Source: an uncultured Prevotellaceae bacterium (lineage in GTDB: Bacteria > Bacteroidota > Bacteroidia > Bacteroidales > Bacteroidaceae). From it: a stretch of 64,000 nucleotides of DNA. Made by a program: the position numbers and the translations under genes. Shown here piece by piece: positions 9,351-64,000 of the stretch. The notes below the pieces were generated by a model. It did no database searches, was not told where the DNA came from, and was given only the letters and a program-made list of their open reading frames with translations. Where the stretch lies: positions 55,657-119,656 of the forward strand of contig CAMAFX010000001.1 in the NCBI GenBank assembly GCA_945833925.1, written 5' to 3'. Positions within the stretch are counted from its first letter, which is position 1. The number at the start of each line of letters is the position of its first letter.

Positions 9351-10462
9351 TACAGTTCCGACTCCTTCATTCGCTCAGCGTTCTCAGCCACGATGAGGTG
9401 GTCTATGCAGTCCTGTATCTGTCCGTCCATGAAGGCAGGCAGGTTGTAGATGGTGTATCCGATGCGGTGGTCGGTGACGCGTCCCTGTGGATAGTTGTAG
9501 GTGCGTATCTTTGCCGAGCGGTCGCCCGTCGATACCATGGTCTTGCGTCGTGAGGCGATGTCGTCGAGATATTTCTGGTGCTCCTTGTCGTAGATGAAGG
9601 TGCGCAGGCGTGCCAGGGCACGCTCCTTGTTCTTGGGCTGGTCGCGCGTCTCGGTACACTCGATCAGGATCTCCTCGTCCTCGTTGGTGAAGGGGTTGCG
9701 CCACATGTAGCGGGCACGTACGCCCGATTCCACTTTGTTTACGTTCTGTCCGCCGGCACCCTGGCTGCGGAAGGTGTCCCACTTTATGGCACCCTCGTTG
9801 ATCTCCACGTCAAACTCCTCTGCCTCGGGCAGCACTGCCACTGTGGCAGCCGAAGTGTGTACGCGGCCCTGGGTCTCGGTGGCTGGCACACGCTGCACGC
9901 GGTGCACTCCGCTCTCGTATTTCATGATGCCGTAGACGCCTTCTCCGGTAACCGAGCATACAATCTCCTTGTAACCTCCAACGGCACCCTCGTTGTAGTT
10001 AGACACCGTCATCTTCCATCCCTTTGTCTCGAAGTACTTGGAATACATGCGGAAGAGGTCGCCGGCAAACAGGGCAGCCTCGTCGCCACCCGTACCACCG
10101 CGAATCTCCAACACGATGTTCTTGTCGTCCTCGGGGTCGGCTGGCACAAGCAGCAGTTTTATCTCTTCCTCCAGTTCGGGGATGCGCTTCTCGCTCTCAG
10201 CCATCTCCTCGCGCAGCATGGCCTTCATGTCCTGGTCGTCCTCCATCTGGAGCATTTCCTTGGCGTCCTCTATGTTCTGGAGGCAACCCATATACTCCTT
10301 TCGTGCCTCCATTATCTTGCCCAGGTCCTTCCACTCCTTGGTCAACTTCACATATCGCTTCTGGTCAGCAATCACGCTGGGGTCAGTAATCAGTGTACTC
10401 ACCTCTTCATAGCGCGAAACAAGACCTTCAAGGCGCAGAAGCAACTCGTTATTCTCTATCAT
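9350..10462 (-). CDS. prfA: Peptide chain release factor 1
   Basis: FRSQGAGGQNVNKVESGVR (GGQ motif) and PATETQGRVHTSAATVAVLPE. Confidence 0.97.
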   Translation of the reverse strand: MIENNELLLRLEGLVSRYEEVSTLITDPSVIADQKRYVKLTKEWKDLGKIMEARKEYMGCLQNIEDAKEMLQMEDDQDMKAMLREEMAESEKRIPELEEEIKLLLVPADPEDDKNIVLEIRGGTGGDEAALFAGDLFRMYSKYFETKGWKMTVSNYNEGAVGGYKEIVCSVTGEGVYGIMKYESGVHRVQRVPATETQGRVHTSAATVAVLPEAEEFDVEINEGAIKWDTFRSQGAGGQNVNKVESGVRARYMWRNPFTNEDEEILIECTETRDQPKNKERALARLRTFIYDKEHQKYLDDIASRRKTMVSTGDRSAKIRTYNYPQGRVTDHRIGYTIYNLPAFMDGQIQDCIDHLIVAENAERMKESEL

Positions 10463-19064: not shown

Positions 19065-19179
19065 AAAAAATCACGGTGCGTGAGTCGGTCAAATCACGCA
19101 CCGAGATTTTTGAATTCACGCACCGAGATTTTTAAAATCACGCACCGTGATTTTTGAAATCACGTAGCGTGATTTTTCT
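19065..19179. repeat. 22-bp-period palindromic array (1 inverted + 4 direct units)
   Basis: tcacgcaccgagattttt-type units start at 19094, 19116, 19138 and 19160; reverse-oriented unit aaaaaatcacggtgcgtgagt at 19065-19085. Confidence 0.92.
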
Positions 19180-28821: not shown

Positions 28822-28883
28822 CTTGACACTTGTCTATCAACGCTTGACTTTTGTCTTTCAACGCTTGACTCTCAACTCTTGAC
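28822..28883. repeat. Short 21-bp-period repeat (tcaacgcttgac core)
   Basis: cttgac at 28822, 28843 and 28864; full tcaacgcttgac at 28837 and 28858. Confidence 0.7.
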
Positions 28884-51912: not shown

Positions 51913-51952
51913 AAAAAGTAAGGAGTGTCAACGCTGACACTCCTTACTTTTT
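51913..51952. terminator. Bidirectional terminator between pepT and the toxin gene
   Basis: AAAAAGTAAGGAGTGTCA-ACGC-TGACACTCCTTACTTTTT, perfect 18-bp stem. Confidence 0.95.
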
Positions 51953-52222
51953 GAATAAATCACTATGTGAGCCTGTTCTGACAAGGCGAACAAGTCGGAT
52001 GGAATCTGTGATGTCGTACATCAGTAACCAATCGGGAGCAATGTGGCATTCCCAGATACCTGCGAATTTGCCTTTGAGAACGTGAGGAAGATATGAAGCC
52101 GGAACTTGACCGTCTCGCTGAAGATAGTCAAGAACAGTGCGCATATCTTCAATGTTCAGACCTCGCTTGACCATCAGTTTAAGGTCTTTCTTGAACTGTC
52201 TGGAAAATTCAAGTTCGTACAT
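51944..52222 (-). CDS. YafQ-family type II toxin
   Basis: FSRQFKKDLKLMVKRGLN...VLKGKFAGIWECHIAPDWLLMYD...RTGSHSDLFKK. Confidence 0.92.
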   Translation of the reverse strand: MYELEFSRQFKKDLKLMVKRGLNIEDMRTVLDYLQRDGQVPASYLPHVLKGKFAGIWECHIAPDWLLMYDITDSIRLVRLVRTGSHSDLFKK

Positions 52223-52223
52223 A

Positions 52224-52463
52224 TTACGAAAGGCATTGGTTCAACAGATCGTCAACGGAAGAAGCCTTAAAAGTCTTACCAGCCCTGACATCTTCGATGG
52301 CTTTGATAGTCGTGGCATTAAGTTCTCTCGTCTTTGTCGGGTTGGCAACTCTAACAGCAGCGACACCCTTGATCATCTTCAAGGCTTTCTTAATGTCTGA
52401 GATTACAGCGTTCTCTTCAAGTGTAATTTCAAGATACTGTACAGGTATTGATGCTGTATTCAT
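52224..52463 (-). CDS. Cognate antitoxin
   Basis: 79 aa ORF directly upstream of the toxin; a promoter and palindrome lie further upstream. Confidence 0.75.
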   Translation of the reverse strand: MNTASIPVQYLEITLEENAVISDIKKALKMIKGVAAVRVANPTKTRELNATTIKAIEDVRAGKTFKASSVDDLLNQCLS

Positions 52464-52557: not shown

Positions 52558-52750
52558 CACATTTTTCAGAAATAAGAAGCATGTTTCTCCAACTTTAACA
52601 TTTTTCCGTGCCGGGATTCTTTGACATGGCATGTGTGATTATTCTGTTGTCTCCTTCAGAACCTAACCGCGATAAGCTTACTTCAATTATCCCCGAAAGG
52701 GTATAGTACGGCGTTCTTTCTGCTGTATTATACCCTTTCGGTGCGTTTTG

Positions 52751-52783: not shown

Positions 52784-52990
52784 TACCCGAAAGGGACGTT
52801 TCTAAGTTTTCCATAAATTAATTAATAGACATTGTGTTGAGATTATAATTTTCGTTAATTCACGGTCAATTCACGAACATTTACGTATAAAATATAAATG
52901 CTCGATTTGCGCGAATAATGTAGGCAAAACGTTGAAGGGGTAACTTTTTGCTTAATCTGTAGTTGTTTCTGTTTGTAGCAGACACTGCTT

Positions 52991-53105
52991 TTAGAAAAAG
53001 CTGCTGCTGCTTCCAGAAAATGCAGTAGCAGCTTTTCCTGGAAGCAGTAGCAGCTTTTCTTGGAAGCAGTAGCAGCTTTTCTTGGAAGCAGTAGCAGCTT
53101 CATTT
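52991..53105. repeat. 22-bp-period array (1 inverted + 4 direct units)
   Basis: gcagtagcagctttt at 53022, 53044, 53066 and 53088; inverted unit aaaaagctgctgctgcttccag at about 52995-53016. Confidence 0.92.
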
Positions 53106-53117
53106 TAGTTCATCTGC

Positions 53118-53906
53118 TTATTCCCATTTGAACTTCAGGTTGCAGCTGGCGGTGAAGACTTCCTCTGTATATCTGAGTGTCGCATCTTCTCCGTTTGCCT
53201 TCGCTTTTAGATATTCGTTTGTGTGTTCCTTGAGTATGGGCATTGTCACGAAGATTCTCATCTCGTCATACTTTTCGGATGGAATATCGTTGAATATAAG
53301 AGAATAACTTGTAGTTAACCATGAATCCTTTACGAAATAGTCATCCACGGCGGTTGGCATCTGGTCATTGTATCCATACAACAGATATGGATGCTCAATG
53401 CCAACTGCCATACAACTTTTACCGTTTACCTTAAAGTGTTTATTAAGAACTGTACCTGGGGCCTCGCCAAACAGTACCTTGTCACAAGTTATTTTTACCT
53501 GTCCATTGATAAATGCGGTAAATGGATTTGGCCAGCTCTTCTCCTTCTTATACCATTCAGCACCGTCAAGATACTGCATGTAGGGTTCAAGGATGAAGGA
53601 TGTTCTTTCCTTAGCATATTTGTTATCTTCAATCTCTTTTAAGTTATAACCACCTACGTATACCGCTATATGTAAAGCCGAATAACTTTTGTAGTGGATT
53701 ACGTGGTTTTCATTGATGTATACTCCATCGTAAGACGTTGAATTGCCTTCTATACTAATTCCATTAATGTCTCCACCATCGTAAACATCGGTCAAAAGAG
53801 GACCCGGGTATGGTGGAACAAGACCATTATCCTCTTCTTCCTCAGAACATGATAGAATACACAATGCAGATAATACAGCAAATAGCAGATAATAATACTT
53901 TCTCAT
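53118..53906 (-). CDS. Lipoprotein, DUF5025-like
   Basis: MRKYYYLLFAVLSALCILSCSEEEED lipobox. Confidence 0.7.
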   Translation of the reverse strand: MRKYYYLLFAVLSALCILSCSEEEEDNGLVPPYPGPLLTDVYDGGDINGISIEGNSTSYDGVYINENHVIHYKSYSALHIAVYVGGYNLKEIEDNKYAKERTSFILEPYMQYLDGAEWYKKEKSWPNPFTAFINGQVKITCDKVLFGEAPGTVLNKHFKVNGKSCMAVGIEHPYLLYGYNDQMPTAVDDYFVKDSWLTTSYSLIFNDIPSEKYDEMRIFVTMPILKEHTNEYLKAKANGEDATLRYTEEVFTASCNLKFKWE

Positions 53907-63799: not shown

Positions 63800-64000
63800 T
63801 AACCATTTCCTCATTCTTCTCGGTAGCCTTCCCTCGCTCTTCCCTTCGCCCTTTTCTCGCTCTTCTCTTCACCCTTCCCTCGCTCTTTCCTGTCCCTTCC
63901 CTCGCTCTTTCCTGTCCCTTTCCTCTCTCTTCTCTTCGCCCTTTTCTCTCTCTTCTCTTCGCCCTTTTCTCTCTCTTCTCTTCGCCCTTTTCTCTCTCTT
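63800..64000. repeat. Homopyrimidine-biased tandem repeat, 23-bp period, truncated by the window edge
   Basis: ttcgcccttttctctctcttctc starts at 63935, 63958 and 63981, preceded by degenerate units with cctcgctctttcctgtc. Confidence 0.92.

Follow-up and report, generated by a model that had tools for sequence, protein, structure and literature searches.

A 22-bp repeat array in an uncultured Prevotellaceae genome belongs to a dispersed, species-specific family at gene 3' ends

The array and its neighbouring genes

The window analysed here, a stretch of 64,000 nucleotides from an uncultured Prevotellaceae bacterium, contains a putative lipoprotein gene with no Pfam match (53118..53906, minus strand), the immediate 3' flank of which is formed by a repeat array lying 12 bp from its stop codon. 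In the direction of transcription the array is followed next by the gene for a RelB-like antitoxin (52224..52463, minus strand), which is partnered by a gene for a YafQ-like toxin (51944..52222, minus strand). Upstream of this pair there is a long inverted repeat at 52692-52742 (CCCGAAAGGGTATA...TATACCCTTTCGGT) with a third half-copy, CCCGAAAGGG, near 52785, and it is the top terminator-like site in a scan of the window from 45 to 64 kb.

The array itself is composed of one inverted leading unit, the head (52993..53014, minus strand, AGAAAAAGCTGCTGCTGCTTCC), a spacer of 3 nt (53015..53017) and four direct 22-bp units on the plus strand (53018-53105). The first direct unit, D1 (53018..53039), is degenerate at its 5' end, with AAAT where GGAA is expected, D2 (53040..53061) and D3 (53062..53083) are identical, and D4 (53084..53105) has a degenerate 3' end, TTCATTT. 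The core of the head is 1 base away from being an exact reverse complement of the core in the direct units (GCTGCTGCTGC for GCTGCTACTGC). TRF reports the array at 53022-53100 with a period of 22, 3.6 copies, 98% matches and a score of 151, and as 20 order-1 shuffles of the window scored no higher than 56 the array is far beyond chance. Re-reading the sequence and the TRF result therefore both bear out the layout given in an initial annotation of this DNA, one inverted unit and four direct units in steps of 22 bp, and the annotation was equally right that an array at 19.1 kb has an identical layout with unrelated sequence. This second array (19065-19178, score 132) has an inverted head (19065..19083, minus strand), a loop, GTCGGTCAAA (19084..19093), that is conserved among the loci of its family, and direct units D1-D4 (19091..19178, plus strand, starting at 19091, 19113, 19135 and 19157). 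Despite their unrelated sequences the two arrays have in common a design of A-run, stem and T-run.

Repeat families and their species range

The source genome is represented by one draft assembly of 2.5 Mb in 117 contigs, 87% complete, which was searched and read in sampled stretches; about 40 match places were fetched and the family counts were made by eye. The unit of the window array defines a family, F1, with about 25 dispersed arrays in the genome, and the 19.1-kb unit a family, F2, with about 17. The F1 core matches the genome at 111 places when up to 2 mismatches are allowed (16 places for the reversed pattern), and F2 at 45 (none when reversed). At least two further 22-bp families are present in the same genome, F3 of the AAGTTCCGCTACGGCTTTTC type (L021, L046, L183) and F4 of the AAAAAAATTTTTTTTCCGCTGCGG type (L167, L168, L170, L173, L174, L178, L179, L180, L182), the units of F4 being A8T8 blocks, one per 22 bp. 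The flanks of most F1 and F2 arrays have no sequence in common. Some F1 arrays (L015, L016, L018, L019, L045) lie inside a longer dispersed segment, a composite element (...TTATAGCAATGGCGTGCCAACCATCG) whose shared flank is about 100-285 bp and up to 628 bp long, these being parts of larger duplicated segments.

Searches of 138 further genomes from the genus, 59 from the order and 60 from the phylum (about 250 other Bacteroidota) did not find the tandem pattern of F1, and public bacterial contigs, a set that may not include the own genome, gave 0 matches. F2 was likewise found in no other genome of the genus, save for a TCACGCACCG core in one other species (G013), where it sits in an otherwise different unit remainder; an array of this species at L061 consists of three direct units with one inverted unit at its end. 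Other origins for the arrays were considered and rejected: a phage origin because the F1 tandem pattern was found in no viral contig, plasmid iterons because of the dozens of loci and the lack of a replication gene beside the window array, CRISPR because of the lack of spacers, and a known RNA family because of a search of the window against Rfam 15 that gave 0 matches at the gathering score.

A period of 22 bp as a trait of the lineage

Arrays with periods of 16-45 bp were counted in stretches that had not been picked for arrays, with small samples per genome. The commonest array period was 22 in the own genome (16 of 41 arrays in 463 kb, 34.6 per Mb), in 20 genomes of the genus (11 of 29 in 359 kb, 30.6 per Mb) and in 687 kb around PepT from relatives chosen by their match to this gene (13 of 44, 18.9 per Mb), which are mostly uncultured Prevotellaceae/Bacteroidaceae from the rumen or herbivore gut (best PepT identity 80%). 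Elsewhere the density of period-22 arrays was 3.0 per Mb in other Bacteroidales families and 3.2 per Mb across the phylum, an enrichment of about ten-fold in the genus against other Bacteroidota, and zero were found in 50 kb of E. coli. A period of 22 is thus a trait of the lineage, yet the period-22 units of different species are mostly unrelated in sequence.

The initial annotation had suggested that the two arrays of the window stand for a class of loci. This is what we find: each of the two units has a family with many loci, two or more further 22-bp families accompany them and period 22 is enriched across the genus. A chance likeness of two arrays can be set aside because there are dozens of clusters in this genome and 22-bp clusters of different sequence in related species.

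Period-22 units also tend to be palindromic, with a mean circular palindromicity of 0.63 against 0.46-0.49 for units of other periods, and 15 of 40 are significantly near-palindromic at p<0.05. The F1 unit is only weakly palindromic (0.45, p=0.97), and strong palindromicity is found in most F4 units. A leading inverted unit occurs often in F1 and F2. The expectation that most arrays would begin with one was not borne out, however, as the 45-bp flanks of only 7 of the 41 unbiased period-22 arrays contain an inverted unit (3/16 in the own genome, 2/12 in the genus and 2/13 in the relatives), and F1 itself includes arrays that are all direct (L010, L013, L014b, L017). Near-palindromic units take its place in many of the remaining arrays. 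Arrays without an inverted unit, which had been named as the mark of a coincidence, do therefore exist, yet the resemblance of the pair is no coincidence, since both arrays come from dispersed families that bear heads. A leading inverted unit does not define the class, and palindromic units may be a more general form of the inverted-head design. Some F1 arrays (L022, L024, L025, L026) mix normal units with units whose halves are flipped (AAGCAGGTACTGCTT, a near-perfect palindrome), which look as if unit cores invert in place.

Location at gene 3' ends

Genes were called with a simple hexamer gene finder, a crude approach that gave 90% coding. In the own genome the gaps that hold arrays are 29 convergent, 18 tandem and 1 divergent, against 31, 116 and 42 for background gaps (Fisher p=4e-9 for the convergent excess and p=5e-4 for the divergent class), and the unbiased subset alone gives 11, 7 and 0 (p=8e-5). 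Many arrays start less than 40 bp from a stop codon. In other species the convergent trend is similar but weak (7, 16 and 2, p=0.06). Enrichment at 3' ends would also be expected if insertions elsewhere were harmful, and REP/BIME repeats too are often located at 3' ends. At one array site, F1 is found in none of the 29 orthologous genes listed from other species, most of which have an ordinary hairpin and T-run just past the stop codon. A search for a syntenic empty site showed that the convergent gene pair at L009 is an arrangement not preserved in relatives.

Hairpin and terminator form

The head of the window array forms the 5' arm of a plus strand hairpin, and on the minus strand the 3' arm with a tail of UUUUUCU; the predicted folds have energies of -27.9 and -24.6 kcal/mol on the plus and minus strands respectively (z of -5.5 and -4.4). 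D1 is degraded here and the head pairs over a longer stretch with D2, which is the partner of the whole head. The head and first direct unit of F2 fold at -24.0 kcal/mol, and the minimal form at L044, just two units located between convergent genes, at -31.3 kcal/mol (z -7.6). The head hairpin is followed by a T-tract on both strands, and by fold and sequence it has the form of an intrinsic terminator, a GC-containing stem and then a T-tract behind a gene.

Gene 3' ends were scored as terminator-like if they had, within 200 bp, a hairpin of 12 kcal/mol or stronger and its T-rich tail. Of 37 array-bearing 3' ends 84% pass, compared with 48% for the remaining convergent ends, 21% for tandem ends and 7% for shuffles, although the 84% is partly built in, any inverted repeat with T-runs being bound to score as a terminator. 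Of 23 arrays, 18 have a head that is more complementary to the first direct unit than to the later ones, with 4 ties and 1 worse, and in the F2 hairpin 3 pairs have changed on both sides, giving a covariation score that 1 shuffle in 500 and no slid version reached (TCTCG with CGAGA and TCACG with CGTGA; also GTAG with CTAC in L014). A terminator role cannot fit all arrays, since several without an inverted unit fold weakly or adjoin a separate strong hairpin (L010, L011, L017, L166, L183, L185).

Inverted pairs of DNA-uptake sequences act as bidirectional intrinsic terminators in Neisseria, and there too a dispersed repeat in inverted orientation gives a terminator-like hairpin behind genes. 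The arrays described here differ in that one arm is multiplied in tandem, that their sequences are not common to different species and that no uptake role is known for them.

Origin and spread of the arrays

F1 and F2 have left different traces of their history. F1 loci share a constant 11-bp core and the 11-bp linker is near constant within an array, with linker identities of 0.88 within arrays and 0.59 between them (permutation p=0.001); linkers homogenised within arrays and different between them point to local amplification in steps of 22 bp. Some F1 arrays have their linker reverse-complemented with respect to the core (TTTTCTTTGAA as opposed to TTCAAAGAAAA). In F2 the identity of units is 0.90 at the same position and 0.85 at other positions, and the later direct units depart from the first unit alike at many loci; as these unit-specific differences are kept by position across loci, an ordered element of about 90 bp must have been dispersed. 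The initial view that the arrays are not simple slippage thus holds for F2, where whole elements have dispersed, and not for the homogenised linkers of F1, which reflect local duplication.

The dispersal of these arrays, their restriction to one species, the 22-bp register, the position at gene 3' ends, the hairpin with its covariation in F2 and the homogenisation within F1 arrays are all observed. On balance we think it probable that the window array is a copy of a non-coding family with these properties, that its head hairpin works as a bidirectional intrinsic terminator and its other units are tandem copies of one arm, and that the families spread much as REP or MITE elements do. Together the head and the direct units that follow make up a long stem with A-runs and T-runs at its borders, which has terminator form in both directions. 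The remaining direct units would repeat one arm and its T-tract, having been added at the locus in steps of 22 bp, or two helical turns. Each extra unit may give the polymerase another chance to terminate. F2 would spread in REP/MITE fashion as the ordered element of about 90 bp and F1 as the shared core with locus-specific linkers, the preferred site of the family being between convergent genes.

It is possible, though we consider it rather unlikely, that the arrays are REP/MITE-like selfish or neutral repeats, moved by a transposase in trans or by recombination and tolerated between convergent genes, with the hairpin a substrate for mobilisation and not a terminator. The many dispersed copies, the species restriction, the sharp edges and inverted ends of F2 as an ordered element, the separate strong terminator that adjoins some arrays and the precedent of BrickBuilt in P. 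gingivalis (PMC4596501) would all be in keeping with this, but no linked transposase was found. A search for RAYT (Y1_Tnp) gave two weak PF01797 matches (L144, L145), the best at 22.5 bits against a cut-off of 23 (23.2 bits with its neighbours in frame), and there are no F1 or F2 units within about 1.4 kb on each side of these genes. Furthermore, no target duplication is seen by eye at the edges of F2, and the T-tracts and the pairing of head and first unit are kept beyond the obvious needs of mobility.

It would seem improbable that the arrays are primarily elements of DNA architecture, made of dyads and A/T-tracts that keep a helical register of 11 and 22 bp and lie between convergent genes as supercoil sinks or as sites for gyrase or nucleoid proteins, as has been proposed for BIMEs, with geometry mattering more than sequence. 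Dyad-to-dyad distances do cluster at 10-12, 22 and 33-34 bp, perfect dyads at these spacings being commoner than in shuffles (small counts), and the A8T8 blocks of F4 at 22-bp steps, the one geometry common to four unrelated families and the convergent location would be expected; however, tandem arrays of near-palindromes give half-period dyads by construction, and several arrays are at tandem sites or have no palindromic units. That the arrays are plain slippage by-products of existing terminators, with local growth, incidental sequence sharing and a 22-bp step derived from polymerase or repair, is very improbable and in its pure form already contradicted, as the locus-specific, homogenised F1 linkers and the recurrence of period 22 with unrelated sequences would suit it but the 11-bp core at about 25 loci and the order of F2 units across loci require dispersal.

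More tentatively, a process found throughout the Bacteroidaceae/Prevotella lineage could repeatedly generate two-turn, 22-bp arrays of dyads, unrelated in sequence, where transcripts end. Each species would then have families of its own, and geometry and place, rather than sequence, would define the element.

Relation to known repeats

The closest known kinds of repeat are REP/BIME repeats and BrickBuilt, a minisatellite MITE of Porphyromonas gingivalis. The latter consists of intergenic tandem units of 23 nt without spacers, has 19 dispersed copies of variable unit number in one species and a close relative, and is bounded by a long non-repetitive leader and tail with IS5-type terminal repeats, GAGACC... 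(PMC4596501). F1 and F2 are similar in occurring in the Bacteroidales and in being intergenic, spacer-free, dispersed and confined in range, but their period is 22 and not 23, they have no leader or tail, their inverted unit lies within the array and there are several families per genome. IS5-like terminal inverted repeats (GAGACCTTTGCA type, up to 2 mismatches) occur twice in the window, where 6.4 are expected, and none is near the arrays.

REP, BIME and REPIN repeats with their RAYT transposases are short species-specific extragenic palindromes that occur as inverted pairs and tandem groups (PMC3733652, PMC3116915). F1 and F2 are likewise short, extragenic and species-specific with inverted and tandem units, but no repeat-flanked RAYT gene was found (about 1.4 kb on each side), no unpaired GTAG/CGTC tag was noted and the arrays here keep a strict 22-bp head-to-tail register. 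Beyond BrickBuilt, no account of 22-bp arrays in Prevotella or Bacteroides was found in a literature search that covered subscription papers sparsely.

If the reading of the arrays as candidate terminators is correct, many transcripts in a large group of gut bacteria would end in species-specific repeats with a fixed 22-bp register and a turnover from one species to another. Such repeats would aid the annotation of terminators in a phylum for which their prediction is poor, would account for assembly breaks and supply loci for strain typing, and would provide a test case for the joint origin of tandem and inverted repeats.

Finally, arrays of neighbouring periods were also observed. An imperfect 21-bp tandem repeat (CTTGACTCTTGTCTATCAACG, 2.4 copies) is located at 28822-28872 of the window, and in a genome of another Bacteroidales family there are palindromic 23-bp arrays (CTCACAAGCTTGTCAATTTTTAT) 1.4 kb apart (L194:8231-8298 and 9647-9736). 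A further 23-bp array (CTCGCTCTTCTCTTCGCCCTTTT, 7.4 copies) at 63833-64000 reaches the end of the contig (the window end is C1:119656), and a near-identical array opens contig C89 (L042:1-56), and therefore this repeat probably broke the assembly.
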